DNA from: Echinometra lucunter
Taxonomy: Eukaryota > Echinodermata > Echinoidea > Camarodonta > Echinometridae
Length of the DNA: 64,000 nt
NCBI GenBank assembly: GCA_029962745.1
Contig: CM057151.1
Span: 251,298 to 315,297 of the forward strand
Direction of reading: 5' to 3'
Of the stretch, positions 25,548 through 62,960 are shown piece after piece. A program made the position numbers and the translations under genes. Under the pieces are notes generated by a model. It did no database searches. It was not told where the DNA came from and saw only the letters and a program-made list of their open reading frames with translations. The stretch's first letter is position 1, and the number at the start of each line of letters is the position of its first letter.

Positions 25548-25643
25548 ATGGACGTTCCCATGGCTGGCGGTCTAGCCGCCAAAAGAGGTGGTGGTTTGCC
25601 TAAATTACGAGAACTACTGCGCCGACAAAGACGGGATTCTGAC
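25548..25643 (+). CDS. STRIP1: STRIP exon 1 (codons 1-32)
   Basis: Encodes a Gly/Ala/Arg-rich start ([20 protein letters not shown] from the second Met). It ends GATTCTGAC before GTAAGT, phase 0. Confidence 0.92.
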
Positions 25644-28600: not shown

Positions 28601-31600
28601 CTATTGTAATGTAGTTAGGACAAACACATATCCAACTAAATTACAACCATTGTATATTTTACAGAAAAAAAAACATTCGTATTTGTTCATTTTCTTGGAG
28701 ACAAGCCCATACTAAAGAGTTATTTGTTTAATTTAATGTTCTTGTTTTTCAATTGAATTCTTAATACTGTGCAATATTACTTTTTAAACATAAGCAAAAC
28801 ATACTCCACAAATCGTTATCATCAATGCTCACCTTGAATTTGTCTGTACATTGTCATAATACTAGAAGCAGAAATAATAATCATCTACATGTATGGACTG
28901 TTAATAAGAATTATACACTTTTTCTTTTAGACACCATGCTCCTGTTATTTGGAATAATCTACCACAAGAAATTAAAACAATTAACTCAATGTGTTCCCTT
29001 AAGAGAAAACTTAAATCTTTCTTAGTCACAAGTGTTTGAAATCTTAATAATACTGCCATGTAATGTTTTGTGATGGGCTTGTGCGGTAAAATGTATTTCT
29101 AAATGTAATGTCATATATTTTTGACGATATTGTTGGGCAACTGAAGCGTTAAGCCTTTTTAATCATGGTCTGTTATTGGTAAGCAAGGTCATGTAGTGAG
29201 TGAGTTTGGAACTTTGCATTTCCTATACAAATTACCCACCAATGTTCGACAGTCTCATCTGAAGCTATAGGCTAGCATTTACATCTTTTCTCCCCTTTTT
29301 GTCGTAATGGAGTTTAAACAGTGCTATCATTACCTATCAGTCAGTGTTTAATCATCTTTTAAACATGTTTCTTGGCATTTTTTAAGGGGATGACATTTCA
29401 AATTTTCTCTGGAAATCTATAGACCTTTCCCCTTGATTTCCTTTGGCTTTTTGTAGTAAATGTAAATTGAACAATAGCAAAATAACTTCAATTTCAAAAT
29501 ACCTTGCTAGAGCATGTTGAAAATATTAAATGTCTTGTAGTGATTTTTTATTCTCAATTAAATTAGACATTACATATTCAGCATATTTTGAGTACATGTA
29601 AAATGTCCTGTTCTATCGCTTCACTGTATTTACTGTTTAATAGTTTGTGGACAGCTCCATTGTGAAGCAGTTGCATAACTAAATTAGACTATCCTCCACT
29701 AATTTTATCTTGTAAAACACAAATATATACATATAAGCAGATATTCTCACTTTCCAAAGAAAAATAATTGTGGAACACAGTCATGCACAGGTCATATTCT
29801 CTAGAGGCATGAATAGTATGTTGCTCTTTTCCACCTTAAAAATTTGTGAGTTTTGGAAACTAAAAATAATTTCCAAATCTGATGATGCACATTAAATTCT
29901 TTGTTTTGATAGGTGATTGATATGACACACTTGGCACATAAGAGTAGATAGCTTGGAAAATCTGTTACAATTTTGAGATTTGAATTTCGGGGGGGGGGGG
30001 GGGGGGGGCAAGACAATCCTTCCAATTGTGATAAATGATAAGTAACAGAGCAGGTAATTACAAAAATGATTTCAAAATATACTGGTGATTGAATTAACAC
30101 GAAGTGGTAGTTTTTACTGAAAAGTTGGTACATGTAAATGGGAAATTTCATGAAAAGCAGTAGTCTGGTATTCTACCGCCTAAATCGGTAGAGTTGGCAA
30201 GTATGAAATTTTCAGGATTAAGAGGACATGTATCGCTTGGAATGTTATGAAATAACTTACGTGTGCTTTCTTGTAATCAAACAAAAGCTATAAAATTTAT
30301 TCCACCATTATCTCTTTCTTATTTCCTTTCTCTAATTCCTCTAATTCCCCATAAGCTGGCTTTTTAAAAGAAAGAATATATCAACATAGTGTTACTGAAA
30401 ACCTCCAAATGGAATATTCACTCACCATAGAAACCTACAGAGAACATCTCAAACAAAAGCTGCACTTCAGTCAGTCTGCACTTTGATGTTTTTTAAACTC
30501 CAGATTACTGCTTTCTGAATCTGATTTCAGGGCCAAAATGATACTCCTGATCTGGATTTCGAATACGCAGATGCTCACAAATATACTTCTGAAATTGCAG
30601 GTAAGATTAGTAGAGGTGCTTTAGTTGAGTGGATTAAAGCACTTGACTAGAAATGAAAAGATCTTAGCTTCGATCCCTGACTTATGTCCTTGAACATGGT
30701 ATTTTATCTACATTGCTTGTACATTAAATAAATCACTGTGATCATATAATAATGATAATTTAATTTCAAGGTGCTCCAATATTATCCCAGCTCTGCTAGC
30801 TGCCATTCCTGGCATCCTGGCACTCACTATGTACCAATGAGTGTATGTGCGTTTCTTTTTTTTTTTTCTTTTTTTTTAAATATTTGAATCATAATAAGAA
30901 TTTTTTAAATTTATCATACTCACCCAGATTTTAGTCATGTGGCTTTAAGTTAAAACAGACTCAGAAGTTTGGAATCTATGTAGATTTGAACTTTTAAAAC
31001 CAATTTCTCTTGCTTGTACAGCATAAGCTTAGGCATATTACAAAATGGAAAAAAAAAAATTATCTGACATTTATCAGGCAGGCCATGCATTTCAAATTCT
31101 GTATGATGAAACTCTTATGATTCGTACCTTGATAAGATTCAACTGATTTACCTCAAATCAAATTGTTTTTTTTTTTCTCAGAATTGTATAGTTATACTGA
31201 GGAACCAGAGTTTTCATTGGGACAGAAGTGTTTTGAAGAAGATTTCCATTCCTATGGTGAGTCAAATAATTTCTATTCATAATATTTTACCTGTAATTTT
31301 CAATACATTTAAATTTTATTGGTGTTTGTGTCAGTCAAATATTTAAGTGATAAGAGTGTTATATCATTGTTATTACATGTCAGGAAGTGCAGTAGATGAT
31401 TCATTTGTAAATCACTTTTGTATGCTCCTGAAGAATTGCATTGCTTTCCTATGAATATCAGTTGTTACAACCAGTCCATCTAATCACCAGATCTTCTAAG
31501 GATTGTCTTCTTATGATGTTGTTTTAAACCTTTTGTTTCCATGGATACAGTTGATGTAAAATGGAGTCAGCTGGATGACAGGAGACGGATGATGCATATC

Positions 31601-34600
31601 TTACGTCTACAGAACAGCTTAGAATGTGCCAAGAGGGAACAAAGAATGAAAACTGCTAGAGCTGTTCTCTATCTTGCTCAAGGTAGGCTTTTCTGCTAAC
31701 AAAATATATTGAAAGCAATGGTGTTACTTGTAACAATATGATAATAATGATATTCTGGATTTTTATAGCGCCTAATACATCTTGCCGATGTTTCTAAGCG
31801 CTTTACAGAAATATTATTACCCCAGTCATCGGATTCAGATCCAACTATGATTATTGTTATTATTGTCATCTATGTTATGCATAAATATTTTTTAGGATAG
31901 TGTTTACATGATTTCCATACATTTACCAATATATGTATACTTATCCTTGATTTATGAACCATACTGCTCTGTTTGATAAGTATCGCGTCTGAAACCTGTA
32001 TTACTTAGGCTGAGAAAAATCTTTATTTCAAATACTCCATCTGTTTATTTCAAATGAGAAGTTCCAGTTAATTTACATATTGTGAGGTACATTGTTACAT
32101 TTAAGAATAACTCTGGTATGTTTATATCACAAGGTGTATTCAGTGAATGTTCATCAGAAGAAGACCAAGTGAAATGGTGTCGTCATAACTGTTTTCTTCT
32201 CTACCGATGTGGCATCTTTACAACATTTGTAGAGTTGTTATGCATGGAGGCAGAGTAAGTTTGTTCTGGGACTTAAAGTATTGTTTAGACATTGCATAGT
32301 AAACCAGATCTCCACACCCCCCCCCCCCCCCCAAAAAAAAAAAAAAAAAAAAAACAAGAATAAAATCTATAGGGAAATTGAATCCTAGTCACAAGGGTGA
32401 AAAAATGTACCTTGTGCATCATATGCACTCTGTATTTTTGTGTGTTTTTTGTAATGATGCAAAGGTATAGAGAGCACTATGCTTATGCCATTTTATTTAA
32501 CTGCAGTGTTTGTTTTTGTTTTTGTTTTTGTTTTTTTGTATTGTGGGCAGTTTACCATGGCAGATGTGAATAAGACCTTATTAGCTATTATCAGCTTACT
32601 GGAGGCTTATAATGTACATTAAGATTTTCTTGTCTGTATCTGCGATTTCCATAATTGTATATTTTTTGTGTAGCATGTCAACATGTTATTGGTACTGATA
32701 GAATGACTGTATAACTATAGTCATGGATTTATGAGTGTCTTAATCCAGCATAGCTGTGATTATAGGACTGAGCAGGATGATCCTGATACCCCTGGGCAGG
32801 GTATTATATATTCTAATTGCCTAGTCTTTTGGAGGAGTCTTTAAGCCGTCTGTCCCGTGTTTAGGAGAACCACACCATAAGCACTTTAAAGATCCTGCTT
32901 CATTTTTTGAAAAAGAGTAGGGAGCCATCCAGATGAAGTAGTTTAAAGCTGATGATTTACTTTAATATTTCATGTAATTTATGTAAGACTTCATCTATGT
33001 TTTTATTGATTGAATAATTTTTTTAGGATGAAAGGATAAAGCTCACCTTTTGATACATCATCTGACATTTAAATGACACAACTGTGTTGATAGTGTTGTT
33101 ATATGTAAACCTAAATCATCCATCCATCCATCATGTATGTTACTTTTATTTGTTTTTATATTTGGAAAATGAAGTGAATCAGTCCATCCATCTAAATTTG
33201 AAGTATCCCAAATCTTAAATCCAGTAAATTCTCTTTCCATTTCATGAATTTTATTAGAAACTCAGTTGCCGCTTCAACTGCACTTCGTAAGCCTGCTGTA
33301 TCTATTGTTGACAGTACAGACCTCAGGTAAGTCTTACAGGCAGCCTGATTTAGCAGATTAAGTTTCCACTTGCTGACTGAATTTTTATTGGGTTGAAATT
33401 TTTCAGTGTTGGTTCATAGTGATTTTTATGAAATGACAATAATAAAGTTCTCTCTCTTGCTTTATTCAGTTTAGTAATCATGGAAAATGTTAAACCATTG
33501 AGAAAATATGTCCATTTTGTATATGAATAATGAAAACTTTATCTGTCTACAATCCATGAAGGTTTGTTGGTTTTTAGTCATGCACAACTGCATAAAATAC
33601 TGAGGCATAGCTGTATACGTGCATGCAGTAGAGCTGAGCTGATATCACACAGAAGTGGCTAAAAGACTTATTGAGTATCATAGCTTAGTGGTTTGGCTTT
33701 CAATAGAAAGATTTAGGATTCAAATCCCCATCTGGCACCTCATTTTAAAAGATTTTAATCTACACTCATCCCTCTCCATCCCAGTGTTAATGCTCTAGTG
33801 GTACTTACATGTACATGTGCATGGATTCATGATTGGGCCATGATCAGGGGAGCATTTCATGAAAGGACTTGTTGGATATTTTATCCGACAAAGTCTGTTT
33901 TATCCGACAGTTGCCATAGTAACGATGCTTCTCAGCCAATCAAAATCAAGGAAAGATGTCAGACGACAAATGTTGATGAAACGCCCCCCAGGTTAATATT
34001 GGAATGCTAGAAATATCACAGCATGTCAGATTATATCATAATGCAAAAAATCCGCTTTTATGATAACAGCAATGTTCTGTTGTTCTTTGCATGCAGAGTG
34101 GTATTAAGTGTACTCTACATCATGGTAGAAACCCTCCGTACTGAGCATCCTGATGATACAGATGAAATGAAGGCACAAATACATAATTTCAAAACAGATA
34201 TAGGTGAGTGCTTTCTATCTTTTTTCCCTGTTGCCTGTTATGCTATATGCCCTATCAAATATTAGGGTTATTATAGCTGTTATGTTTATTATAATTTAAG
34301 CTGTTTTCATTATGATTGATAGTCTGCTGTTGGTTATGCACTGGAGTGTGATGAGATCAGAGGTCATTAGTTCAAAGTATGCATTATGAAACTCATCAGC
34401 ACCAGGAAAAGGCAGTGCATAGATATTACACTTTTCTTGTAAGCAAATACAAGTAGGGTGCATGCATAATTTTATTTGAAGATATTAGATACAAGCTGAG
34501 GACTTCACTTTTCTTTATTGAAGAATTCATACTTTATGAAAGAAAAAAGGACACACTCATGAAAATTACTTTAATATGAATGGATTGATGATGTGAATGA

Positions 34601-37600
34601 AGTGATTGAAACATATTGAATGTTACAAGCAAGTACCAGTAAACTTATTCTTGAATGTATTAAAAGAAAAACAGACAAACAGATTTTCAACTGTATTCAC
34701 GTGGATGTATTATGAGTACTTCACAAACGAACAGGAAAGCTAGGTATTTTGTTTCTCACGAGTTGTTCACATATGTTTGTTAATTACAAACCAGCAGGCA
34801 CTTCGTGAGCAGCGACACTTTCTACCGGGGGACACAAGCATTGCTTTTCAAATGAGTTAATTGTTTTTCTCGAAAATAATTGTTTCATAGAGCCAATAAA
34901 AGAGAGAGAGAGAAAAAAAAACCTGAATTGCATGTAGTATCATGCACTCTAACTTTAGTACACTACAATTCATTACTGTTTAATGTTAATTTTTCAGTTT
35001 CCCCCTTGAAAAAATTTAAGTTATGGTACAAATGATTCATATCAATTTTTTAGTTTCGTTGTATAAATTTGCCCATAAACTATTTTATGATAGAAAGCAT
35101 CTGTGAAGCATTGTGTACATTGTTTTTTAAGTGTATTCCTTTGGCAGTCACAATATATCCTTTCAAATTTCATAGCTCGTACAAAAGCATTGGTGATCTC
35201 CATCGCTACAGGAAAACACCCCCCCCCCCTCAATGTTTCACTCCTCAGTGCGCTTACATAATAGGGGACTGAGGTAGCCCAACAATTTCACCACGGTCTC
35301 TTCCGTAACTACTTTACACTTTCCTGTCAAATTAATGAGCAAAATAATCGTTTATGAAGGTTACTCATGCAAAAATGTTCACAAATATTTGTGATCCAAT
35401 CAGCTCTCATTATATCACGATTTTGCACTGTGTCTGAAATGTTCTAGGATAGGTTGATTTTATCATGGATCGTTTGATAAAGGCCCTACTCTTAAAGTGA
35501 GCAGCACAAACATACATGTGTTCCTCTTTTCGCACGAGAAAAATATAATTATGTAAATGTTATATTAGTGACAAACTGCTTCTTTTTTTTTCCTTTGGTG
35601 ATGAGTAGGGTTGGGTTGAAGTAATTCTGTTTCTTGCTCCTACCATGAGCTTTAGCTGACTTTTTAGAGAGATTGCCGTTCTCTTTATAAGAAGATTTTA
35701 ATTGGCTGCTGATGTATTAAACCAGGATGATACGTCAAGTCACCATGGAAATTTCATCTAAATGTAAATTAATAAATCCTAAAGGATTTACCAGGTAATG
35801 ACATATGAATATCAAGTAAGACTGTTAGTGTTACCATCCTACTCATTTAATTGTCAGGTGGTATAAAGTCGATAATTTTTCATCTGTTTGTTGGTATTAG
35901 AAAGCCCCAAATATATTCGTAATTTAAGCTTTACTTGCTCCTTATAGCTATGCAGTAAATATTGCCTTTGTAAAGTCTAAAATAAATATTTAATTGTTTT
36001 GAAACAGGTCAAGCTGTCAAGGAAGACGACTCTCTTTCTATCATTCTCTTCAACATGGTTACTAAATTCTGCAGTGGTCATGCACCACATTTCCCTATCA
36101 AGAAAATACTGCTTCTTCTCTGGAAAACTATTCTGGTAAGTTTGAAATATTTCTCTCCTTGGAAACCATTTTAGAGTTGTAATCATAAGCTTAACCCATT
36201 CGTGACAGGAATTATTTAAAGCCTAATTTGATCAGCTTTTATTTTTCAAATTGGCAACACCAACATTTTCATTTTATTGCTACATTTTCTTATAAAATGT
36301 CATGTATCTGAAATGAATATAAATTGACAGAAATTATGATGAGAAGTCAAAAAGTTGCCAATTTGCAGGGGGAAATGGTGATTTTAAACTTTCTATCACA
36401 TTGTCAATTTAAGGATTTTAATGCTTATTTTCCTTTAAATAATTTTCAGCATCAAACAACGAAAATTGACACAACCGAAATGGGCACAGTTTGTGTAGAA
36501 TTCTTTTGCTGTTTCTGCTCATGTATTTGGTATGATTTTTAGGGCTTTGCATCAAAAGATATTAGGCCAAACCACAAAATGTGGACCTCTGCCATGAATG
36601 GGTTAACTAGTACAATTGGGTGTATTTTTGTAATTGAACTTTCTTTGCACAATGAAGCTTGTATATAGTTTTTATTTTTGTATTTTTTTAAATTAGTACT
36701 ATTTTGTCATTTGAATCAGTTAATTGCTTTAAAAGCCTCATGAAATTGCACCAAAAGTCAAATAATGAGAGTACCTCCCCTTCCAAACTTTGCAAGGATT
36801 CAAAATTTCTTGTAGGAAATTTCAAGTTCCATTCTATATCAGAGGTGAAGGATGGGTCAAGGTGATCCCTTGATCCACTTCATAATAGTCTCACTAATCT
36901 TACAATTTGATGTGTAAACTTTATAAACGTTTCTAAAAGCTTATCCATCAATAGATTTGAATTATTATTTGATAGTGCATCCCCTGAGCTTTGCTGTTGT
37001 TGATGGCATCTTTTCTACAGTTCTCATTAGGTGGTCTAGCAGACTACTCACAGATGAAACAGACTACAAGGAAAGCAGCTGGTCTACCACCTGTTCGAGA
37101 AGATACCATGTGTGTTGCCAAGACAATGAGGGCATCCTCTCCTCCAATGGCAGCAGCTGAAGTCTTTGATCCACAACGAAGGTCAACCAGACAAACCAGA
37201 AGGGTATTCTTATTAAACCTAATCAAAAATCTATCTTTATAGCTCTTTAATGCTCAGAGTTCATCTATTCTTGTTTGATTTGAAAGATACTGAGTATGCC
37301 ATAATATCAAATCATTGTTAAGTATATTTTGAGGGAAATTTTGTGTCTTTGTTTTTCCTTACATTTCGTACATAAGTGATACTACTCTTTACTATCAAAC
37401 ATATTCTGAGGTCAGGTTGATGATATAACCTTGTCCCAAATTGTTTTCAACACAATTATTGTTTTGTCTCCCTTTCTCCCTCCCTTCCTCCCTTCCTCCC
37501 TTCCTCCCTTCCTCCCTTCCTTCTGCTCTCCCTCTTCTCTCTCCCTCCCTCCTTTCCTCTCTCCCTCTCCTTCCTCCCTTCCTCCCTTCCTTCCGCTCTC

Positions 37601-40600
37601 CCTCTCTCTCTCCCTCCCTTCCTCCCTTCCTCCCTTCCATCCGCTCCTCCCTCTTCTCTCTCCCTCCCTTCCTCCCTTCCTCCCTTCCTTCCGCTCTCTC
37701 TCCCTCCCTCCTTTCCTCTCTCCCTTCCTTCCTCCCTTCCTCCCTTCCTTCCGCACTCCCTCTTCTCTCTCCCTCCCTCCTTTCCTCCTTTCCTCCTTCC
37801 TCCTTCCTCCATTCCTCCCTTCCTCCCTTCCTTCTGCTCTCCCTCTTCTCTCTCCCTCCCTCCTTTCCTCTCTCCCTCCCTTCCTCCCTCCCTTCCTCCC
37901 TTCCTTCCTCCCTCCCTCCCTCTTCTCTCTCCCTTCCTCCCTCCCTCCCTCCCTCTTCTCTCTCCCTTCCTCCCTCCCTCCCTCTTCTCTCTCCCTTCCT
38001 CCCTCCCTCCCTCTTCTCTCTCCCTTCCTCCCTCCCATCCTCCTTTCCTCTCTCCTTCCTCCTCCCTCCCTCCTCTTCTCTCTCCCTTCCTCCCTCCCTC
38101 CCTCTTCTCTCTCCCTTCCTCCCTCCCTCCCTCTTCTCTCTCCCTTCCTCCCTCCCATCCTCCTTTCCTCTCTCCCTTCCTCCCTCCCTTCCTCCTTTCC
38201 TCTCTCCCTCCCTTCCTCCCTTCCTCCCTCTTCTCTCTCCCTCCCTCCCTCCTCCCTCCCCCTTCCTCCCTCTCTCTTCTCTTTCCCTCCCTCCTTTCCT
38301 CCCTCCCTTCCTCCCTCCCTCTTTCCCTCTCTCCCTCCCTCCCTCTCTCCCTCTCTCCCTCTCTCCCTCCCTCCTCCCTCCATCCATCTCTCTTCTGTCC
38401 CCTCCCCTCTCTCTCTCTCTCTCTTTCCCTCTTAGTGCAGTTTTTTCTAATGTACCATCACTGTAACCATAGATTCCTATTTATATACTTTAATTCAGTT
38501 GGTTGTATAATTGATATATGTTTCTACCTTTTCAATTAAAAAAAAGGTTGATTTTCTGTAATTCCCAAATTATTATTCCATAGTATCAGTATCATTATTT
38601 TTGTTGATCCCCATGATGTAAGTGATCGGTTTGTATTAATGGTATGACATAATTTTCTGTAGAAACTTACATTGGTTGATTTTTAAAATGAAGTTATTAT
38701 CTATTTGATAAAATGAAGAAAAGAAAGTACAATAGTGGAAGCACACATGATTATTGCTAGTATGAATATTTGTTTATTGGAAACTGAAAATTCAGAGTTA
38801 CAGAGTAGTGCAGAGTTTGAAAAATGAAATTGGACAAAGAATAAGAAAGGTGTATAACATGACACATAATGACTGAATTATGAATGATTGAGTAAGTGCA
38901 CCAGGAGTGATCTTTTCTTTTTTAAGAATTGAACATACTTGTTCTTTGTCTAATGCTCTTAAACTTTCATTTAAGTGTTGCTTGTTTTAAGAATTAGCTA
39001 TTGCTTTGAAATTTGATACTGGTGGGTGTTTCACTTCATAGAGCAATCACTTATTAGAATATTAATGTCACTGGTCCATTCTTGGTGCTGAAGGGATGTA
39101 GGATTACATGTAGTCCCATTTGACCAATAAGATCAAGAATAACTGCAACTTTAAAGTATTCCAATCATTGCTTTCTGAAGTATGAAGAAGTACTAGATAG
39201 CAGTGTTTGCGACGCCTCCATTTTATGAAACTTAGTGCTGTAAGTTTTTAAGGATAATTTGATTAGGTTGGACCTGCAACACATGTATCCAATACCTTTT
39301 ATACATTAAGTTCAGGATGCAGGTTTCTGAAGGATTTATGGCTTTTAGTAAAGATTTTTTTTTTATTTTGGTCAAATAGGACTGCCTGTATTGCATGAAC
39401 GCTCATCTTTCTAAAATATTTATGCAGTAATAGATTCCATTGCACGGCAAAGGTAGAGAAGAGTAATGAAGGCTGTAGAACACATAAAAGCAGAGTGTTG
39501 CTGCCAAAGTCTCTTCCTGTTTTTCTTGCCTTCATATCTATCTTTGACTTGCTCTTTTCAGATGTTTGAAACAAATATGGTGTGATTTAATTTAATGTTT
39601 ATTTTTTTATTTACTGGCTAACCTGTTTTGTTCTATTTCTTTACCCCATAGGTGTAGTAATACTGACTTGCATGGTCATGTGGGTTGAAAAATTAACACT
39701 TGTCAAGTTGAAGCACATCCTAAACTATATATGGCATCTGAATATATATTTCAACAGCAGGTTTCTTTTTCAAACTTTCATCTTTTTAATGGCTGATGAT
39801 CAGTAATATGGGCTTTAATACAGAGATCTTAAAAGGGGACATTGGAAAAACTTCAAAATAATATGGCCAAAGTGAAATTGAGTTTCTGTTTAGCAAACTA
39901 GAAGAGTTTTTAATTTTTAAAGAAATATATATTTGGTATTTACTGATCAGTGAGACAAAGGAGTAAGAATATTTTTGTGAGATAAAATTATTTTGTCATT
40001 GACCCTTTCCACTTCACTCTGCTTTAAATAATGTCCTCTGTTTTCTCCAACAAATGGGAAAAATGCACCCACACACCTTTGTTTCTTGTGGAACTCAACT
40101 AATTGCCCTGACCTTTCACCCCTGACCTGACCTGATTCTGCTGTCGCTGGCGGTTACCCATCATCCATCACCGTGACCCACCCTTGACATCATTTGCTTC
40201 TCGTGTACGTGGAGTGTTGAGTAGTTACCACAGTAATGTACTGTTTCTGCAGTCATTCATAACATTTTTCTGGATTGTGGAAATTGCATCTTTATGTCTG
40301 CAAGAGTTTTGTTTCAAATGTCAGTTTTGTTGATCAGTTCCCTTACCATTTTTATAATTTTAGTGTACCTTTGTTGCATGTTTTGATTTCTAGTGGTGTC
40401 CCTTCTTGTAGCCTTAAGTTCTGTTGAAGAATAAAATGTTTGATTTTAATTGTCTAAATTGTTACTTGGACTTGATTGAACTTGTTAGAATATTGTACTC
40501 TTTTACTTGATCAACAAAAGCTTTTTGAGAAATGTTATATCTGGGCAATTGCAGAGATTTCATGGATCATTGGATATATGAATTCTATATAAATAATTGC

Positions 40601-43600
40601 ATATCCCAGGTCAGAAAGGGTAATGGATTATTATATTTCAATGATACCATGGGTCCATCATGAGGTGTTGTAGCATTAGTAAGAGCTTATTTTATACAAC
40701 TCACCCTGAGACATACAATATTCTGAATCATTTTCATACATAGTCATTGCTGTTTTGATGTTATTCTCAATACAATATCTCTCATCAACTGTGGTGCTAT
40801 AATGATAAATACCGCAGTCTAAGAGAAAGCAAGCAAAATTTGAGACATATTCAAGCAGACAGTCAGGAATGGTGGAAGAAAGTTTGTCCTTTTGCTTTTT
40901 CCTTACTTTTATTTAGCATGCTTTATCAAATCACATTGCAAGCCAGGATGTATAGGGTTACTCATGGTATATGGCTTTGAAATTAAGACTTTCTTTCACA
41001 CCTCTGTAATGTCAGTGCAAGATTCATGAATTCACTGTCATAGAGGGTATAGATAGGAACATTCAAGCATGTGTTCAATTAGAATGCACACAAGAAAAAC
41101 AACTCTGCTCAATAAGATTGCATGTATTGTGCATGAACTTGACTTATTCTAAAAAGATTTTTTTTTTTAATGCAACATTTATTTTGTAGAGACATGTTAG
41201 TCCATAACTTAGTGGTTTTTAACTATTTTCAGCATTAGCTGTAAATGTACAGATTGAAGAAGGTATTGATACATGTATAAAAGCCTATATCTGATCCTAT
41301 TCAGGATTGAGGATTTTCCTTTTGGATTCAGGAATTATGAATTTTATGACAACCTTCAAACTTACCTCTGGGAAGATATAAAGTGGCACTCATTTCCAAC
41401 TGAGAATTCAGTATGCACTTTTTCAGTTACAAGAATCACAATCTTATCCTTGAGTGAAATTTGTGACTTTGATATTGAACTGAATAGGAACTCAGGCTTC
41501 AAAATATCTGTTCTGCATTATGAGGTATAACTCCCAATTTTGCTTTGTTTTAAATTTTGCACATCAATTGTGGTAAGATCAACAAAATATCAAACCAACC
41601 CATTTTAACATTGGTATATGTAAGGCATTTTTATTGTCCAAGGATTCCAAGCCTCAGAAGTCTGCTTACAATGAATAGGTTTAACTTTAGGCAAACTTAA
41701 ACTCTACCTGAATAGGATTAGATGCATACAGTCTATAAGTACAATAAACATGCCATTTCTCCTCATGTATTGATGTAATTCATTGCTTTGCAGATATCTG
41801 TCTATTTTTTAATCAGGAAATAAGACGTCACAAATATATTTTTTAGATTTGTACATGCATAATATGTGTTTAAAAAATAAATCATATGTAATGGAAGAAT
41901 TTCATTTAATACAGTCAGGGAAATAACATGACCAAATAATATTCTGATACAAAGAATATTTTGTGTATTGTAAAGTTTGGCTGTACTAGTAGCTGCGAAG
42001 CTGGAAACTTTTGCAAAATGATTTTTTTTTTGGGGGGGGGGGGAGGAGACAGTCATCCATTGCAAAAAGTAATGTAATTGTGTCAGTTTTGATCACTTAT
42101 ATTATTGGCATAAAACTGTCACATATGTGAACCAGTCACAAAACTCAAAAAAATTCTCATGCATGCAAAAGTTTCTAGTTTTGAGAGTATTGTAGATGAT
42201 GATGATTGCTGAGAATATGCTGTCATGATATGGTAGGTAAACACTGATAAAATAAGATTTTGTTCAATGGATTGAATATAGGGTTTGGTGAAGCAGAATG
42301 GGATAGATGAACCAATGCCTGAAGATCCTAACAACCAGGATAAAGATGATGGAAATGGGAAAGAAGATGGAAGTAATGGTAGTGAAGAAGATGATGATGG
42401 GAATGGTAGACCACCTGATACTCCTAGAGAACCAAGAGTTCTACCATGGACACCTAAAGTCAGGTATATTGTATGGTCCTCTATTATTGACAATGAAACA
42501 TTGAAATGGAAGGCCGTTGATGTGTTGTATGATTTTGAAAGCCTTCCCCTTTGTAACTGTCAATTGTATGGTCCTCTATTATTGACAGTGAAACATTGAA
42601 AGGGAGGGCCGTTGATGTGTTGTATGATTTTAAAAGCCTCCCCCTTTGTAACTGTCAGTAGGAGCTCCAAATAGCTAGGTATTTTATAATGGGTTAATTG
42701 TAAATGAAGAACTGTAGAACATTTTGGAGTACTACATGATGAATGATATTGGGAAATATATAGTTTTAAAATCATCTTTATTTTATTTCCACTCATTTCA
42801 AAATCAAAATACCTGTTTTAAAATTAAAGGCATTGGCTAACATTGTTATGATTTTAAAAAAATCTCATTTTGTTACTTAAAAATGGGATAAACATTAGGG
42901 TTATAGTGTAAAAATACCAGTGTGAAAGTTTCAGAGCATAATATCCACGGGAAGTATTTTTAAATATTAGAAATGTGAACCAATGTTTGAAAATATACGA
43001 GGGTCGGTTGCATAGACCCAACGTAAGGAGTGCGCATGCGCACATGACTCAACGGACCGCACTGTGTGTATTGACGTATCACGCGGCGGAAGGCAAGTAA
43101 CGGTATTTTTGAATTCGCGCAAACGGTCCTCTTAGTTCAGTGTCTCTCGAGACGAAAGCTAATAAAATCGCGGTTTGTGTCTAACTTACAGCTTTTCCTT
43201 CCAAATTATGGTTGGTTTCAGGGTTTCTGAGTATAAATACAAGTATTCATACACATGTTTCATCTTAGTTTGAGAATTTTTTAAATCAGCTGCTCACAAA
43301 GTTAGCCAATGCCTTTAAATAGATTGATATGTTTTTCTTTTTTTATTTTGTTATGATTAACAGGCAAAGAGACTTGGACAATTTCTTGGATCACACTAGG
43401 AACAAATTTGTAGGATATCAAGTGCCAAGGTGAGTCTATAATCATAATCATCAAAACGTTTGTTATGATGTACTAGTAGTTTTGTGAAATATCATCTGAT
43501 TGACTTCATTAAAAGAATAATATCTGAGTTCAGTGAAAATGTAATTGTTTTTGTTTCAATGTTTACAGTGACACAACGACTCTAGCTGGCCTTCCACAAC

Positions 43601-46600
43601 CCATCCATGAAGGTGTACAAATTTTGAAAAAGGTTAGTTAATTTTACTTTTAATTCATATTAATAGTTTGTAATTTAGGCAAAATATATTCTTGTTGAAA
43701 TAGAGTTAATAATACAAACTTGATCTTGGAATTTAGTCTTTGATCCACAGAAAATTGAAAGGATACAAAGAAGACCTTGTGAATGCAATGATCAGGGCCC
43801 TGTTGCATAAAACTTACCATTGATGGTAACTTTGCCATCAATTGTAGCTGCCATGGAAACCATGGAATTTGATTGGCTGTTACCATGGTAGTTACCATTG
43901 ATGGCAGAGTTATCTTTGATGGTAAGTTTTATGCAGCAAGGCCCGGGTATTACAGTGCATGTATGACTTCTTCAAAATGTTGATATAAATAAAATGCCAG
44001 GATTTGTGCTTTAATGTAAAGTATTAATGGGGCATAAATCAATGCAGGAATGTAATACTGATTTAAGAATTATTTGGGGGCCTTATTTTTGTGTACTGAT
44101 TCTAATAATTCTCTTTTTATTGATAATCATTTCATTTTCAGATTTATATTTTGTTTTATCTTTCCAGCATGTGTATGTTTCACTGTGTGAATTACAAATC
44201 AAGAGAGAGGAGGAAATCAATAAAAATCCACTTTCTAAGGTAAGATGAATGAAGGTCTAACTCTGACAATGGCATTGAGTGTGTAGGATTCAGGGAAACC
44301 AGTTTGTAATTATGCTTCCACTGGAACACAAGCTAAGAAGCAATCTAACATTTGTTTGTGACTGTGTTAAAATGTTTTAATAGTTCACAAAATTAGGTAC
44401 TGATAATTATAAAATGATATCGTGGGTTTGTGTAGGCAGTATTACCTTTCAGATGTACATGTATTTTAATGTTATACAATAATGTGAATGTTTATAGAGC
44501 ACTGAAATAATAAGTATTATGAGGGACTTACTTACATGTTGCTTCATTGTATCTTTGTTATCATGTTTACAGGGAGAAGGTGACTCTGTTTCATCATCTG
44601 TAGAATATCTCTACCAATCCATGCTACCCAATTTACCCCAGTACATGGTGAGACATGTTTACTCAATGTTCTTATTATGTATGAAGAAGAAGACATAGTT
44701 CTTACGTTACATTTAGACTTTCACATTAGGCCAAGCTTCAAGGCCAAGCTTCAAGGCCACCTAGAACCAGTGTAAAAAAAAAAAAAAAAAAGGAATTTAT
44801 TTTAAAACACCTGGGTGGTATTCTGAGACCATTTTATCTCTTAAATATTTTATTCCATCTTTGAAAGTAAATGGGTATTCTGAGACCTCTTTTCATCTCA
44901 GATTTTATCATAATTTTATCTCAGTTTCTCACTTCTTGCGCACGTAGATATGATGTGTCCAGCTTTTGCCCTGATGTCCATCTTACATTTAAGGATAATA
45001 TTTTAAAAAACTTAGAGTAGGGGTTATTTTATCTCTCAGACATCTGCTGTGTTCAGTATTTCAGGATAATTATGCTGCTGGTCTTGCTATTAAAAGTATG
45101 AAAAACAGTCTATTGATCTTAATACTGAAGCATCATTCCCATTGGATAGTCATTGTGGATTTAAAGACTAATATTGTCCTTGAAATGATGCTTTTAAAGA
45201 TGTGCTAAAACTGCTGAAAATACTGAAGTCATTCTTCAAGGAAATTCTGTTGTGATAGAAGTTTAGCAAAATTTGTACAAAATAACACATTTGCACTGTA
45301 TCGCCCTATTATTGGCAAAAAGCGATTTTATTGGCTGAGCAAGATGAAAGTGCAATTTCCTATTGGTTGTTGTATCATAAATTAGCTTGTTTCGGATGAG
45401 ATGAAGTCTTGCTAAAAAGGTTCTCAGAATACCGATTTTTAAAGATGAATGGGTATTTTGTCTTACTGACTTACTGTGGAAGCGTCGTGGTCTGGTGGTT
45501 CTGACTCTCGTCTTTCAATCAGAGGGTCGTGGGTTCGAATCCCAGCCATGGCGTTAATTTCCTTCAGCAAGAAATTCATCCACATCGTGCTGCACTCAAC
45601 CCAGGTGAGGTGAATGGGTACCTGGCAGGAATTTATTCCTTGAAATGCTTGCGCGCTGTAAACGGCTGCCGGGCTAAAGCCAGGGTAATAATATCCAAGT
45701 CCTTTGGAAGCGCATAGAGACGTTATATCATAATGTGATATGCGCTATACAAGAACTGTATATTATTATTATTATTATTACTGACTTAGAATCTCAGATT
45801 TTGTCTCAGATAAAAAAAGGAATTTCAGAATACCACCCCAGATGCTAGCCATGTAGCTGGTGTCTAGCCCAGATCTTCTTCATTAGATTATTCTTATCTT
45901 CACTCTCTTTGATATTTCTAAGGGACATGCTAAATGTTCATCACTGTAGTGCTATTATCTATAGACACGTTGCTTATGATTCTTAATCTGATACATTCCC
46001 TCATGTAGATATCTCTGTTAATAGACAGTTGTTTATGATTCCTAATCTGATACATTCCCTCATGTAGATATCTCTGTTAATAGACAGTTGTTTATGATTC
46101 CTAATCTGATACATTCCCTCATGTAGATATCTCTGTTAATAGACAGTTGCTTATGATTCCTAATCTGATACATTCCCTCATGTAGATATCTCTGTTAATA
46201 GACAGTTGTTTATGATTCCTAATCTGATACATTCCCTCATGTAGATATCTCTGTTAATAGACATTTGCTTATGATTCCTAATCTGATACATTCCCTCATG
46301 TAGATATCTCTGTTAATAGACAGTTGCTTATGATTCCTAATCTGATACATTCCCTCATGTAGATATCTCTGTTAATAGACAGTTGCTTATGATTCCTAAT
46401 CTGATACATTCCCTCATGTAGATATCTCTGTTAATAGACATTTGCTTATGATTCCTAATCTGATACATTCCCTCATGTAGATATCTCTGTTAATAGACAT
46501 TTGCTTATGATTCCTAATCTGATACATTCCCTCATGTAGATATCTCTGTTAATAGACAGTTGTTTATGATTCCTAATCTGATACATTCCCTCATGTAGAT

Positions 46601-49600
46601 ATCTCTGTTGAAGATCCTTCTTGCAGCAGCTCCTACATCTAAAGCCAAGACTGAATCTATCAATATCTTAGCTGATGTTCTTCCAGAAGAAATGCCGTAA
46701 GTATTCTCCTATGATTTCTACCAGAAATAACCATCAAATCGTGTTACCTGGTGGACTAGGTTCATACTAAAGATACATGTAGAGATCGATGGGCCATCTG
46801 TCATGTATCTTTATCTCCTTTGATTTGTTTTTATTTCTAAATGTATTCCTAAATGTGCAGTAGGTGCATTTTCTTATATTGCATAGACACATACCACGAA
46901 CAAGGGTCATAGAGAATGACTGTGTAAAGTATATTAACACCAAACCATACTCCTGAGGATGGTAAACCCATTTCCAAGAAAGAATACATGGTTTACCATG
47001 AAGCCTTTTACTGCTGTACATTCTACCACCATGGAAATCTTCAAAGGATATTAACCAGCCTGTGGCTTTGCTATTTAGAGTCTTATTAATTTTAGCACTA
47101 TGTTATACCTGTTCTATTTCAGAATCTGTTCTGCTATTTATAGTCTTACTGATCTTTAGCACTGTGTTGTACCTGTTCTATTTCAGAATCACTGTTCTAC
47201 TATTTATAGTCTTGTTAATCTTTAGCACTATGTTTACCTGTTCTATTGTAGAATCACTGTTCTACAAAGCATGAAGCTAGGAGTGGATGTCAACAGACAC
47301 AAGGAGATTATTGTGAAAGCAATATCAGCTCTTCTACTTATCCTTCTCAAGCATTTCAAGCTCAATCATGTTTACCAGGTAATTAAACCTGTACCATGTT
47401 TGTGACCTCATATCCTACCCAAGTACCAATATCTTGATATTCTTATGTTACAATGAAAAACTGCCATTTTGTTTTGCCCCCAAAATAGACAAAGGTACTT
47501 ACCGGTATATTCTCAAGGTTGTTCTTATGTAAAATGATTAAAGCTTCTGTCTAAACAATCAGAACGGAATTAAGACCCCACAGTGAACTCTTAAAAAAGT
47601 TAGGATCATTGTTGCATTCCAAGTAACACAGATGAGGTAAGATATCCACTGATCACTGAGCTGGTCAAGTCCACTGATAAGGTCCTAGTGAGACTTTTTC
47701 CAAGATAGAAAAATTATACTCTGCAATCAGACAATCTGATTAATTTTAAAGCATTTTGAGACATTTTTATCCATTTTAAAGCAGTCTGAGGACTCATAAT
47801 TATGATATCTTCGTTTTTCTTATGTTAGTTTGAGTTCATGAGCCAACATCTGGTGTTTGCCAATTGCATCCCTCTTGTGCTGAAATTCTTCAATCAGAAC
47901 ATCCTCTCCTATGTTGGAGCTAAGAACAGGTGAGCCTTTACAGATGGATTTACTTCTTTCAACATGCATTTGAGTAGGATCAAGAATGCCTCTTTGAAGA
48001 AGGGACAGTTTTATTCAATTATGAAAGTTAGTCACAATTATGATAGGTCCAGTCAGTGCAATTGCTCAGCCATCATGGTGCATTGTCTGAGTAATGCTGC
48101 ATAATTTAAGTGTACATTTATTTTCCAATTCATGTTTTATGGTTTACTTAGATTAGATATGTATGATTACTACATAAATCTAATGATACTTCAACAGCTT
48201 ATGTTTCAGAATGATTTTTTTGCACAGATTTTGTTCAAGAAGCTTAATCAACATAACTAAGAAATATAACGGTAACTTCAAATCAATTTTCTGTGTAATC
48301 TATCTTTGGATAAATTGTTTATATTTTTTCTTGAAAGCTTATATTGATAATTTACTTCGTTTTTGTATTTGGTGTACAGTATTCATGTAATGGACTTCCC
48401 ATCCTGTGTTATTGGTGACCAACCTGAGCTTACAGCAGAGAGTCTAGTAAGTATTTCATTACAAGCTACTATACCACTGTTAATTTATGTGTACAGCTAC
48501 AGCACTTGCCATAGTTCCTCTTTCTACATCATGTCTGGATAAAGAGTATGTTGAAATATATGTTTCAGGATTTATCATAGACTGTTGAAACAACACTGAA
48601 GTTGAGACTAACTCATTATACAAGTGTATCATTTTCTAAATGGCAACATTTTATAAATGAGAGTTGAGGCTTGATGAAATTTTGGAAAGAAATAAGTTTT
48701 ATTTTGCATTAGGCATCTTAGGAAAACACTGTGGTGCGAAAAGACATGTTTGGAAAGCAAAATGAAAAAAATTATTGAAAATCAGAATTTTCAAACAAAG
48801 ATTGATAATTACATGGATAGCATATAGACCTTATAAATGAATATACAGTCTTGCTGTGGAATGATATTGGCTCAAATTTCTTTGCAGTATGTCACAGTAG
48901 ACATTTTAATTTTTGCATTTTTGCATTTTGCATTCCAGATGCATTCTTTTGCACCACAGTGTTTTCCTAAGATGCCTTATGTAAATTTGTTTATAAAACC
49001 ATCTGTGAATTAGATCAGATACTCTGAATACTAATAATCCACTAAATTAATGTCTTGAATTCATTTATTGATTATAGGAAGCTGGAGACAGTCAGCCTTA
49101 CTGCTGGAGGAATCTTTTCTCATGTATTAACCTGCTAAGAATCCTCAACAAGCTTACTAAATGGAAGCATTCAAGAACAATGGTAAGATTAGATTTAGTA
49201 AAGGAAAGGGGTTCTTAGATTGAGTACGGTGAAGGGGGGTGGAGGGGGTAGTAGATTGAGTAGGTACTCCTTACCCTCTCCTATATATTAACCTGCTCAG
49301 AATTCTCAACAAGCTTACTAAATGGAAGCATTCAAGAACAATGGTAAGATTAGATTTAATAAGGGAAAGGGGGTTCCTAGATTGAGTACAGTGAAGGGGG
49401 TGGAGGGGGTAGTAGATTGAGTACGGTGAAGGGGGGTGGAGGGGTAGTAGATTGAATAGGTACTCCTTACCCTCGCCTGTATATTAACCTGCTCAGAATT
49501 CTCAACAAGCTTACTAAATGGAAGCATTGAAGAACAATGGTAAGATTAGAATAAGGTTAGAAGGACAGATAAGGAGACATCTAGATTGAGTAGCCTGAGG

Positions 49601-51426
49601 GAACAGTGAAGGTAGGGTATCTATAATGAACTGGCATGAAATCAACTGTTCATGTATGTAGATGTGAACCTTTGAACAGTGAAGGTAGGGTACCTATAAT
49701 GAACTGGCATGAAGTCAACTATTCATGTATATAGATGTGAACCTTTGAACAGTGAAGGTAGGGTACCTATAATGAACTGGCATGAAGTCAACTATTCATG
49801 TATATAGATGTGAACCTTTGAACAGTGAAGGTAGGGTACCTATAATGAACTGGCATGAAGTCAACTGTTCATGTATATAGATTTGAACCTTTGAACAGTG
49901 AAGGTAGGGTACCTATAATGAACTGGCATGAAATCAACTGTTCATGTATCTAGATGTGAACCTTTGAACAGTGAAGGTAGGGTACCTATAATGAACTGGC
50001 ATGAAATCAACTATTCATGTATATAGATGTGAACCTTTGAACAGTGAAGGTAGGGTACCTATAATGAACTGGCATGAAATCAACTGTTCATGTATATAGA
50101 TTTGAACCTTTGAACAGTGAAGGTAGGGTACCTATAATGAACTGGCATGAAATCAACTATTCATGTATATAGTTGTGAACCTTTGAACAGTGAAGGTAGG
50201 GTACCTATAATGAACTGGCATGAAGTCAACTATTCATGTATGTAGTTGTGAACCTTTGACATTCAGTAGGAAGGGAATTCTGATATTTAATGTGCATGGC
50301 CAAGAGTTTGCCACTTTCAAAGTGACATACTTTAATTTATGTCCATACATAGGTTTTAATACCATGCTCACATAATAATATATTGCTCTCTACTCCATTC
50401 CTCTCCATCCACTAACAAAACAAATAATAGAAGAAAAGTTAATGAGTTGGAATCTTTGTTCCTTTTTTTTTAAATCATTATTTAAAAATTCTTCTTATCT
50501 CATTATTTGTAGATGTTAGATAGTCTTCAAAAAGGCTGTCAGTCTGAAGCCTTTATAGTGCTTGCTGAATCAATATGTTTTATCTCCTGATAATCTATAG
50601 ATGCTTGTAGTCTTCAAATCAGCCCCAATTTTGAAGCGTGCATTGAAGGTGAAACAAGCAATGATGCAGCTGTATGTGCTGAAGCTGTTGAAAGTACAGA
50701 CTAAATATCTTGGTCGTCAATGGAGGAAGAGTAACATGAAAACGATGTCAGCTATCTATCAGAAGGTTCGTCATAGACTCAATGATGACTGGGCATATGG
50801 CAATGGTAAGTCTTCTGTCCCCACTTCAAAAATGATATTTCAAATGGCAGTAGTTTTTGTAGGAAAATATGTATAGATGTCCATTATCTATAATTATTGA
50901 TTCAGGATAGGAATATGAAATTATATTCAAACTTGTAGTTTTTCTGCAATATTTATGAATGTTTGAGTCTGTGAATGTCGTCCGTTTAGTATACTAGCTA
51001 GTACACACATTATGAATGCAGTTCTGCAGACAAGACAACGGGCATTAAGTACATGCTAAGCACATTTAATCCAAAGAGGATTTTTTTAATGGGAAGTTAA
51101 TCTTTTCAAGCATACATACATGTATATCTTGCTTTGTTGGTTAATTGTCTACAGATATGGATGCCAGACCATGGGACTTCCAAGCTGAAGAATGCGCATT
51201 AAGAGCATGTGTGGATAGATTCAACTCTAGACGATATGAACACAATAACTCATCATGCCTACATCCTGAGCTTGCTCCTGTTGATAATAACTTACAAAGT
51301 GTGCTAAGTCAGAAGGTAGAATTGAGTGAAGAATTCCAACGGTACTATGAGGTGTGGTTAGACAGAGAAGTCTTCTCAACACAGATTAACTGGGACCTAC
51401 TTCTGAGAGATCAGGTGTGTATATAA
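25548..51426 (+). CDS. STRIP1: striatin-interacting protein STRIP1/2 orthologue (complete gene, 21 coding exons)
   Basis: Scaffold of the STRIPAK phosphatase-kinase complex (with striatin and PP2A), cytoplasmic; it affects Hippo signalling, cell shape and trafficking. Joining 21 exons gives 2,415 bases, 804 residues plus stop, close to the usual length of about 800-840. All introns are GT-AG and all phases agree. The N-terminal N1221 region spans about residues 40-330 ([28 protein letters not shown]). A Gly/Asp/Glu-rich low-complexity linker is at about 335-375. The C-terminal DUF3402/Far11-type region spans about 430-800 ([47 protein letters not shown]). An in-frame TAA at 25539 supports the ATG at 25548, and a second in-frame ATG at 25560 also has good context. 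The vertebrate STRIP1/STRIP2 split is not resolved here. Several introns carry tandem repeats that copy splice sites. Confidence 0.97.
26267..26623. mobile_element. large palindromic element in STRIP intron 1
   Basis: The left arm (from ATTCCTTTAAATCTCC) and right arm (ending GGAGAGTTAAAAGGAAT) are inverted repeats of more than 100 bases. They include TCGCTTTTCGCAGGGAGATC and CATTAGGTCCTCTCG. The right arm carries an extra segment of about 45 bases (near 26521-26565). A MITE or foldback origin is likely. Confidence 0.85.
26749..27512 (+). repeat. 382-bp tandem duplication inside the LINE
   Basis: Copies at 26749-27130 and 27131-27512 are nearly identical from GAGTCCAAATTATAATACC to GAATGAAATACTTGAAGTT. 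This indicates a recent local duplication after the LINE had already decayed. Confidence 0.93.
27642..28617 (+). pseudogene. reverse transcriptase remnant of the LINE
   Basis: Covers the catalytic palm. The first Asp lies in FLDLSKAFD and the FADD box is intact. The reading frame breaks at a TAA at about 27845, another at about 28316 and a stop at 28612. The polypeptide cannot be made as one piece. Confidence 0.85.
30531..30600 (+). CDS. STRIP1: STRIP exon 2
   Basis: Starts after CTGATTTCAG. Encodes [20 protein letters not shown] and ends GCAG before GTAAGA, phase 1. Confidence 0.93.
30608..30730 (+). mobile_element. degenerate tRNA-derived SINE fragment
   Basis: A decayed A-box (TTAGTTGAGTGGATT) and B-box (TTCGATCC) are correctly spaced, followed by TTATGTCCTTG as in the SINE bodies elsewhere in the window. 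It sits in STRIP intron 2. Confidence 0.55.
31182..31256 (+). CDS. STRIP1: STRIP exon 3
   Basis: A long T-run and CTCAG precede it. Encodes [20 protein letters not shown], a highly conserved block. Ends before GTGAGT, phase 1. Confidence 0.95.
31551..31682 (+). CDS. STRIP1: STRIP exon 4
   Basis: Starts after TGGATACAG. Encodes a helical, charged segment ending in ARAVLYLAQ. Donor GTAGGC, phase 1. Confidence 0.94.
31740..31860 (+). mobile_element. SINE-like 3' fragment in STRIP intron 4
   Basis: A TTTTTATAGCGCCTAATACA ... TTTCTAAGCGCTTTACAG block of the kind seen in marine invertebrate SINE or LINE tails, flanked by ATAATAATG. Family inferred. Confidence 0.35.
32134..32254 (+). CDS. STRIP1: STRIP exon 5
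   Basis: Starts after TCACAAG. Encodes [19 protein letters not shown] and onward to LLCMEA. Donor GTAAGT after GCAGA, phase 2. Confidence 0.94.
33258..33326 (+). CDS. STRIP1: STRIP exon 6
   Basis: Starts after TTTTATTAG. Encodes [20 protein letters not shown], conserved. Donor GTAAGT, phase 2. Confidence 0.95.
33665..33775 (+). mobile_element. degenerate tRNA-derived SINE fragment
   Basis: TCATAGCTTAGTGGTTTGG (A-box-like) and GATTCAAATCC (B-box-like), followed by TTTTAATCTACACTCATCC resembling SINE bodies. In STRIP intron 6. Confidence 0.5.
33845..33992. mobile_element. foldback MITE (~148 bp) in STRIP intron 6
   Basis: Ends CAGGGGAGCATTTCATGAAA and GATGAAACGCCCCCCAGG are imperfect inverted repeats. 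Same end style as the MITE at 480-654. Confidence 0.75.
34097..34203 (+). CDS. STRIP1: STRIP exon 7
   Basis: Starts after TTTGCATGCAG. Encodes [20 protein letters not shown] and onward. Donor GTGAGT, phase 1. Confidence 0.94.
36008..36135 (+). CDS. STRIP1: STRIP exon 8
   Basis: Starts after TTTTGAAACAG. Encodes the invariant [15 protein letters not shown] block and [12 protein letters not shown]. Donor GTAAGT, phase 0. Confidence 0.97.
37021..37203 (+). CDS. STRIP1: STRIP exon 9
   Basis: Starts after TTTTCTACAG. Encodes [13 protein letters not shown], a GLPPV motif and MRASSPPM. Donor GTATTC is weaker than the others, and a homopyrimidine tract begins about 260 bases downstream. Confidence 0.95.
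37464..38433 (+). repeat. ~970-bp homopyrimidine tract (CCTT/CTCC)n in STRIP intron 9
   Basis: The plus strand is almost entirely C and T (repeats of CCCTTCCT and CCCTCTTCTCTCTCC), with only rare G or A, mostly in CCGCTC variants. All six frames stay open by composition only; the Arg/Gly/Glu and Ser/Pro/Leu frames are not genes. Confidence 0.98.
42282..42463 (+). CDS. STRIP1: STRIP exon 10 (acidic linker)
   Basis: Starts after TTGAATATAG. Encodes [16 protein letters not shown], then a Gly/Asn/Asp/Glu-rich low-complexity segment, then [14 protein letters not shown]. Donor GTATAT is weak, phase 2. Confidence 0.94.
42466..42660 (+). repeat. ~95-bp tandem duplication next to the exon 10 donor
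   Basis: TTGTATGGTCCTCTATTATT to CCCCTTTGTAACTGTCA occurs twice in tandem, starting within 10 bases of the exon 10 splice donor. Confidence 0.92.
42828..43314. mobile_element. TTAA-flanked MITE (487 bp, piggyBac-like) in STRIP intron 10
   Basis: Terminal inverted repeats AGGCATTGGCTAAC and GTTAGCCAATGCCT are flanked by TTAA at 42824-42827 and 43315-43318. The interior includes a CpG-rich patch at about 43005-43155 with the palindrome GTGCGCATGCGCAC. No transposase. Confidence 0.85.
43018..43045. promoter_or_regulatory. NRF1-type palindrome in the TTAA-flanked MITE
   Basis: GTGCGCATGCGCAC contains the consensus GCGCATGCGC bound by NRF1-family factors. TTGACGTATCACG, partly CRE-like, lies about 40 bases downstream. 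Function is inferred only. Confidence 0.35.
43364..43429 (+). CDS. STRIP1: STRIP exon 11
   Basis: Starts after GATTAACAG. Encodes [20 protein letters not shown]. Donor GTGAGT, phase 2. Confidence 0.94.
43569..43632 (+). CDS. STRIP1: STRIP exon 12
   Basis: Starts after GTTTACAG. Encodes [20 protein letters not shown]. Donor GTTAGT, phase 0. Confidence 0.94.
43793..43947. mobile_element. foldback MITE (~155 bp) in STRIP intron 12
   Basis: Ends CAGGGCCCTGTTGCATAAAA and TTTTATGCAGCAAGGCCCGG pair as inverted repeats, followed by ACTTACCATTGATGG on both arms. The central ACCATGG motifs are also palindromic. Confidence 0.85.
44168..44239 (+). CDS. STRIP1: STRIP exon 13
   Basis: Starts after ATCTTTCCAG. 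Encodes [20 protein letters not shown]. Donor GTAAGA, phase 0. Confidence 0.92.
44573..44647 (+). CDS. STRIP1: STRIP exon 14
   Basis: Starts after ATGTTTACAG. Encodes [17 protein letters not shown] at its end. Donor GTGAGA, phase 0. Confidence 0.94.
45474..45777 (+). mobile_element. tRNA-derived SINE, copy 2 (head B, tail X) in STRIP intron 14
   Basis: Flanked by an exact 11-bp duplication TTACTGACTTA (45463-45473 and 45778-45788). The head (TGGTCTGGTGGTTCTGACTC ... GGTTCGAATCCC) differs from the head at 19396 and 56995. The body and tail (GGAAGCGCATAGAGACGTTA, GATATGCGCTATACAAGAAC) match copy 1. Confidence 0.93.
45961..46610 (+). repeat. 59-bp tandem array carrying the exon 15 splice acceptor (11 copies)
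   Basis: Unit landmarks are TTATGATTCCTAATCTGATA, CATTCCCTCATGTAG and ATATCTCTGTT. The last unit supplies the true acceptor (CCTCATGTAG, 46598) and the first 11 bases of exon 15. The ten upstream units each have the same acceptor and pseudo-exon start but continue into AATAGAC. Confidence 0.97.
46599..46696 (+). CDS. STRIP1: STRIP exon 15
   Basis: Encodes [20 protein letters not shown] and [13 protein letters not shown], near-invariant in the family. Its first 11 bases belong to the tandem array. Donor GTAAGT, phase 2. Confidence 0.97.
47064..47265 (+). repeat. 64/65-bp tandem repeat carrying the exon 16 acceptor (3 copies)
   Basis: Unit: CTATTTATAGTCTT ... TTTAGCACTATG ... CCTGTTCTATTTCAG AATCACTGTTCTAC. 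Acceptor-like AGs end at 47122, 47186 and 47251. Only the last continues into the real exon. Confidence 0.95.
47252..47378 (+). CDS. STRIP1: STRIP exon 16
   Basis: Encodes [20 protein letters not shown] and [10 protein letters not shown]. Donor GTAATT, phase 0. Confidence 0.97.
47829..47929 (+). CDS. STRIP1: STRIP exon 17
   Basis: Starts after CTTATGTTAG. Encodes [20 protein letters not shown] and onward. Donor GTGAGC, phase 2. Confidence 0.96.
48380..48446 (+). CDS. STRIP1: STRIP exon 18
   Basis: Starts after TTTGGTGTACAG. Encodes [20 protein letters not shown] and ESL. Donor GTAAGT, phase 0. Confidence 0.94.
49078..49182 (+). CDS. STRIP1: STRIP exon 19
   Basis: Starts after TTGATTATAG. 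Encodes a conserved [20 protein letters not shown] block ending KWKHSRTM. Donor GTAAGA, phase 0. Its last 60 bases and donor are copied twice downstream. Confidence 0.97.
49120..49560 (+). repeat. repeat carrying the exon 19 3' end and donor (3 copies)
   Basis: The real exon end is at 49182. Partial copies end at 49342 and 49539, each with the AAATGGAAGCATT-AAGAACAATG coding end followed by GTAAGATTAGA. The spacer is GGGG-rich (GTGAAGGGGGGTGGAGGGG). Confidence 0.95.
49601..50258 (+). repeat. 73-bp tandem array (9 copies) in STRIP intron 19
   Basis: Unit landmarks are GAACAGTGAAGGTAGGGTAC, TATAATGAACTGGCATGAA and TTCATGTATATAGATGTGAA. Copies differ at a few positions. Most carry AAG-GTAGGG (donor-like) and TATAG-ATG (acceptor-like). 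Confidence 0.97.
50601..50805 (+). CDS. STRIP1: STRIP exon 20
   Basis: Starts after TAATCTATAG. Encodes the near-invariant [20 protein letters not shown] and [20 protein letters not shown]. Donor GTAAGT, phase 1. Confidence 0.98.
51155..51426 (+). CDS. STRIP1: STRIP exon 21 (terminal coding exon)
   Basis: Starts after AATTGTCTACAG. Encodes [20 protein letters not shown] ... [13 protein letters not shown], stop TAA at 51424-51426. Confidence 0.97.
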
Positions 51427-62815: not shown

Positions 62816-62960
62816 TCTCAGTCTTTGTAAAAGATAATCAGCTTTTGCATGGATGCAAGGTATGTTCATAATGCATCAATTACAAACCATAGCTTCTTAT
62901 AAGTTCACTTTTTATCTCACTAAGACATAAACATAAAATAGGAACACTGAAAAGACTTAC

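Follow-up and report, generated by a model that had tools for sequence, protein, structure and literature searches.

Eleven tandem splice acceptor copies before exon 15 of STRIP in the sea urchin Echinometra lucunter form a candidate mirage-type minisatellite

Minisatellites that span an exon-intron boundary have been called mirages, and the original account is said to be that of Canestro 2002. The name was given in amphioxus Adh3, and mirages are also described in the amphioxus globin genes BflGb6 and BflGb9 (PMC3087553). According to that report, either boundary can be duplicated, many but not all of the repeats retain the AG or GT of the splice site, and the BflGb6 units are 81-100% similar. 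Length and somatic instability are reported for these repeats, and the Adh3 data together with reverse transcription PCR of the globins suggested that regular splicing is undisturbed (PMC3087553). Here, we describe a boundary-spanning array in a sea urchin gene. It lies in STRIP, on the forward strand of a 64,000-nucleotide stretch of Echinometra lucunter DNA (assembly GCA_029962745.1, contig CM057151.1, positions 251,298 to 315,297; hereafter the window, numbered from its first base), where a 59-bp segment over the intron 14/exon 15 boundary is present in 11 copies. This array is most probably a recent, largely neutral mirage-type minisatellite, tolerated since the context of the exon selects the exon-proximal copy. 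A first-pass annotation had noticed the repeated acceptor; it included neither the two further boundary arrays that we find at exons 16 and 19 of the same gene nor the published mirage precedent.

Tandem Repeats Finder reports a 59-bp unit in 11.0 copies (98% matches, score 1233) at 45961-46609, in agreement with the copy number first annotated, although the end had been placed at 46610. The annotated unit length of 59-60 bp holds in the sense that copies are generally 59 bp, and copy 1 is 60 bp with an additional base near -41 and a private substitution at -26. The core 21-mer CCTCATGTAGATATCTCTGTT occurs 11 times on the plus strand, at 45999 + 59k with 10 of 10 spacings equal to 59, where about 3e-8 occurrences are expected from base composition. 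Each unit comprises 48 intronic and 11 exonic bases and contains the 3' splice site CCTCATGTAG and branch-point-like motifs. As had been proposed, the whole 3' splice site and the first 11 exonic bases are present in all 11 copies, which retain CATGTAG/ATATCTCTGTT (the slash marks the splice junction here and below). Copy 11 has two branch-point-like motifs of the form yTnAy, CTAAT (A at -23) and CTGAT (A at -18), and is free of AG between both motifs and the acceptor AG. Exon base 12 is G in copy 11 and A in the other ten, and copy 11 alone runs on into exon 15, again as annotated.

The copies are nearly identical. Relative to copy 11, copies 2-10 have 9 mismatches in 432 intronic bases and none in 99 exonic bases, and the mismatches are confined to two positions, -40 and -36. 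From -35 to +11, ten copies are identical and copy 1 is off by a single base (that at -26). The variants of copies 2-11 follow the order GT GT GC GT TC GC GC TC TC GT, which is non-periodic and forms no simple series. Copy 11 equals copies 2, 3, and 5 letter for letter across all 59 bases, and its match to these rather than to its neighbour, copy 10, is the pattern expected of unequal exchange or conversion. We searched both strands of the window for a dispersed source of the unit and found no ungapped match of at least 36/59 outside the array.

The gene model was built with tblastn guidance and has GT-AG introns with consistent phases. The 772-aa model, which omits exon 1, is 93% identical to STRIP of Strongylocentrotus purpuratus (100% of the query covered) and 91% identical to that of Diadema antillarum, and contains the domains N1221 (PF07923, E 2.8e-51) and DUF3402 (PF11882, E 1.3e-94), as expected for the family. 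Model residues 1-766 are matched by STRIP1 of PDB 7k36, presumably the human protein (1079 bits). The gene had been named STRIP in the first-pass annotation, with the exon in question as its 15th coding exon and entered in phase 0, and all of this agrees with the model. Exon 14 ends in QYM at 44647, intron 14 is 1951 nt long, and copy 11, with its first exonic base at 46599, opens exon 15; intron 15 is 555 nt long. The residues across the exon 14/15 junction are identical in S. purpuratus STRIP and the same in both sea urchin proteins compared, and the junction in STRIP1 of PDB 7k36 differs by one residue (QYM/IALLKILL). We infer that the authentic acceptor is copy 11, so that the choice of the last copy by the spliceosome, as originally proposed, is supported by protein conservation. 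Exon 15 by itself (33 aa) matches no Pfam family.

Entered from exon 14, all 10 upstream acceptors read ISLLID(S/I)CL followed by TGA at codon 10. The premature stop predicted in the first-pass annotation is thus present in 10/10 decoys, while the predicted peptide ISLLIDSCL is exact in 7/10 and has I in place of S in 3/10. Decoy use would lengthen exon 15 to 157-688 nt. With this TGA at codon 10 followed by exons 16-21, the resulting transcripts would be expected substrates of nonsense-mediated decay.

Table 1. Features of the STRIP locus in window coordinates, with the evidence for each.
Feature	Coordinates	Strand	Evidence
11-copy 59-bp tandem array over the intron 14/exon 15 boundary	45961..46609	+	Tandem Repeats Finder, core-word search, copy comparison
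Ten decoy acceptors (first exonic bases 46009, 46068, 46127, 46186, 46245, 46304, 46363, 46422, 46481, 46540)	46009..46540	+	core search, copy comparison
Second acceptor array, exon 16, 3 copies of ~65 bp	47071..47265	+	Tandem Repeats Finder, alignment
Donor array of exon 19 (49078-49182), 3 copies	49125..49550	+	Tandem Repeats Finder, tblastn, donor scan
STRIP coding region, 21 coding exons in the model	25548..51423	+	tblastn-guided assembly
STRIP coding exon 14, 3' end ...CAGTACATG, phase 0	44573..44647	+	gene model
STRIP coding exon 15, entered via copy 11; donor GTAAGT at 46697	46599..46696	+	gene model, protein homology

Two other exon boundaries of the gene carry arrays of the same kind (Table 1), making 3 of the 39 splice boundaries scanned (39 of the 40 internal boundaries; the exon 1 donor was left out). 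At exon 16 (47252-47378), the decoy acceptors have first exonic bases at 47123 and 47187 (TTTCAG/AATC) and the authentic one at 47252 (TTGTAG/AATC). In gapped alignment, these decoy copies are identical to the authentic copy at 58/69 and 59/67 positions; ungapped identity is 0.58 at most, owing to indels. Their reading frames hit stops at codons 13 and 30. At exon 19 it is the donor that is repeated: the authentic site at 49183 and the decoys at 49344 and 49540 all read ATG/GTAAGAT, and each of the three copies comprises the donor and 58 exonic bases. Read-through of the first donor runs into a stop at codon 12, and the third copy has an in-frame stop. In all three arrays, the copy that touches the exon yields the conserved protein, as in S. 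purpuratus. Tandem Repeats Finder matches are 98% for the exon 15 array and 87% and 94% for those of exons 16 and 19, which suggests that the exon 15 array is the youngest of the three.

Further repeats and splice site candidates were observed in the gene. A nine-copy 73-bp intronic minisatellite (49601-50259) directly follows the exon 19 donor array. At the exon 10 donor, a two-copy 95-bp repeat (42468-42657) begins 4 nt into the intron, with the GT outside the repeat. For exon 10, two acceptors spaced by 15 nt are candidates (window 42282-42297), and the upstream one adds GLVKQ; this peptide is absent from S. purpuratus and Diadema STRIP and present in Asterias STRIP.

The exon 15 array most likely arose by tandem duplication of 59 bp lying across the intron 14/exon 15 boundary, with expansion and homogenisation of the copies probably by slippage or unequal exchange. 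After a boundary duplication of this type, an intact copy still adjoins the exon (the 3'-most copy of an acceptor, the 5'-most copy of a donor), and splicing at that copy would preserve the reading frame. Since copies 2, 3, and 5 equal copy 11, whatever selects copy 11 must lie outside the unit. Copy 11 alone is separated from a 5' splice site by the native exon of 98 nt. Pairing across this exon with the donor at 46697, together with exonic sequence, is probably what selects it. Under exon definition and with long introns, sites nearest across the exon are reported to be favoured (PMC9225289). Where two consensus donors compete, the first one is reported to win (PMC6783452), which is consistent with the authentic donor of exon 19. 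An RNA fold that masks the decoys was also considered; the fold of 46422-46720 is not notable against shuffled sequences (z = -1.28, 22/200 as good), and Rfam gives 0 hits in the window at gathering thresholds.

Splice sites were scored with matrices derived from the gene's own sites (leave-one-out for acceptors, trained on 18), and the scores are suggestive only. With a matrix from 18 other acceptors of the gene, the exon 16 decoys score 3.28 and 4.64 and the authentic site 1.88; by this weak measure the decoys outscore the authentic site, so the choice does not follow from local strength. With one clear case, it is only an idea that duplications of this kind persist at sites with a weak local signal, where the exon context makes the choice. 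A different proposal, that no acceptor in the gene is weaker than the two repeated ones, was rejected: both are the lowest of 20 when self-trained, and leave-one-out scoring keeps exon 15 in that place and puts exon 16 fourth lowest.

Several observations weigh against a neutral array with exon-guided choice. In leave-one-out scoring, the exon 15 acceptor is the lowest of 20 (-4.9) and beats just 40.5% of 1152 intronic AGs, and its identity as the acceptor therefore rests on protein homology, not on strength. Alternative 3' splice sites are reported to show an overall upstream preference, although this is significantly reduced under exon definition (PMC9225289), and in a designed library two tandem acceptors are reported to be used with no order preference (PMC6783452; native pairs 2-59 nt apart). 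Taken together, these two results lead us to expect some leakage into the acceptor decoys, which is plausible and would undercut near-neutrality. Finally, arrays show no significant preference for boundaries. Three of the six arrays with a period of at least 30 within the gene span a boundary (P = 0.055 under random placement of one unit each), which is suggestive at most, and we do not claim an enrichment; the six derive from nine rows, from which the period-35 rows at 49368, 49378, and 50030 were removed for overlap with the 161-bp and 73-bp arrays.

If leakage is substantial, the array might act as a length-dependent dial on STRIP output, in which decoy splicing leads to the stop and to decay, and the copy number of an individual sets the productive fraction. 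Each decoy repeats the acceptor in full, 10/10 lead to an early stop, and competition is made plausible by the low leave-one-out score of the exon 15 acceptor and by the reported lack of an intrinsic order preference at tandem acceptors (PMC6783452). In human ABCA7, the length of a variable number tandem repeat tracks exon 19 skipping, and that length is inversely correlated with expression (PMC5954066). However, the ABCA7 product that retains one unit, the closest analogue of decoy use, is reported to be unchanged with repeat length (PMC5954066), and the amphioxus mirage data suggested regular splicing (PMC3087553). In addition, near-identical copies point to a recent expansion, with little time for selection, and we regard the dial as improbable. 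Equally speculative, and doubtful in our view, is a broader multi-acceptor rheostat, in which copy number would vary among animals and set the loss of STRIP pre-mRNA, and sea urchins, like amphioxus, would carry boundary-spanning arrays in many genes.

Near-identical units make an array prone to assembly error, and the repeat could be over- or under-expanded; the mirage of BflGb6 haplotype 1 seemed aberrantly assembled in the amphioxus draft genome (PMC3087553). Yet the combinations of variants differ among the copies in non-periodic order, copy 1 has its private additional base and substitution, and the STRIP gene holds two independent, more diverged boundary arrays, all of which make a copy number generated by assembly very unlikely. 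Whatever its exact size, the array is probably real, and the number 11 is that of one assembly. Recursive splice sites or nested mini-exons, which the regular spacing of the acceptors within the 1951-nt intron might bring to mind, deserve almost no credence, as the array contains 0 AGGT and the three GTs of the first unit (scored alone, self-trained) reach -2.15, -0.18, and -6.41 versus 3.9 to 13.7 for the donors of the gene (1.43 to 12.94 in leave-one-out scoring).

Elsewhere in the window, a rhodopsin-family G protein-coupled receptor open reading frame lies at 15712-17049 (PF00001, E 3.6e-27), and a reverse transcriptase fragment lies within STRIP intron 1 (27848-28318; PF00078, E 2.9e-14). 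The minus strand encodes a PP2C-type phosphatase stretch at 62957-63139 and 63515-64000 (PF00481, E 3.1e-07). Near it is a tandem array with a 68-bp period (63589-63976) that repeats AGGTAAG on the minus strand.

A splice-donor minisatellite in the human gene IFI6 (also 6-16 or G1P3) was reportedly the subject of Turri 1995, to go by its title. The IFI6 minisatellite is like the STRIP array in that it supplies several splice sites, but these are donors and not acceptors, and the units are reported to serve as donors in alternative transcripts (PMC4526556). The repeat in intron 18 of human ABCA7 is also tandem and exon-adjacent, its 25-bp unit opens with a splice donor, and one cryptic product keeps one unit and meets an early stop (PMC5954066). 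In contrast to STRIP, it is on the donor side, the arrays are far larger, and length is reported to affect the skipping of the next exon and not unit retention (PMC5954066).

The exon 15 array has, from its sequence, the structural features of a mirage, and 11 near-identical acceptors before one exon of a conserved gene provide a natural test of acceptor choice beyond the local splice site. Among the matches listed, the name "mirage" was met solely for amphioxus, and no boundary-spanning minisatellite of a sea urchin appeared in their titles or abstract openings (open-licence literature, with most subscription journals outside it). The three boundary arrays in one sea urchin gene suggest that mirages occur in echinoderms too, and such arrays may provide starting material from which new introns arise, a role already suggested for the amphioxus globins (PMC3087553). 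As in amphioxus (PMC3087553), the STRIP array is a minisatellite-like repeat over an exon-intron boundary, with the splice signals kept in 11/11 copies and, by protein homology, an intact authentic boundary beside the exon. It differs in scale, as the two BflGb6 haplotypes are described with 6 and 3 units of 150-160 bp and STRIP has 11 acceptors of 59 bp, and in host, as mirages are reported in cephalochordates (PMC3087553) and the STRIP arrays are known from one sea urchin assembly. The comparison suggests that the kind of repeat is already known, that the STRIP array is a large one, and that echinoderms are apparently a new host phylum for it.

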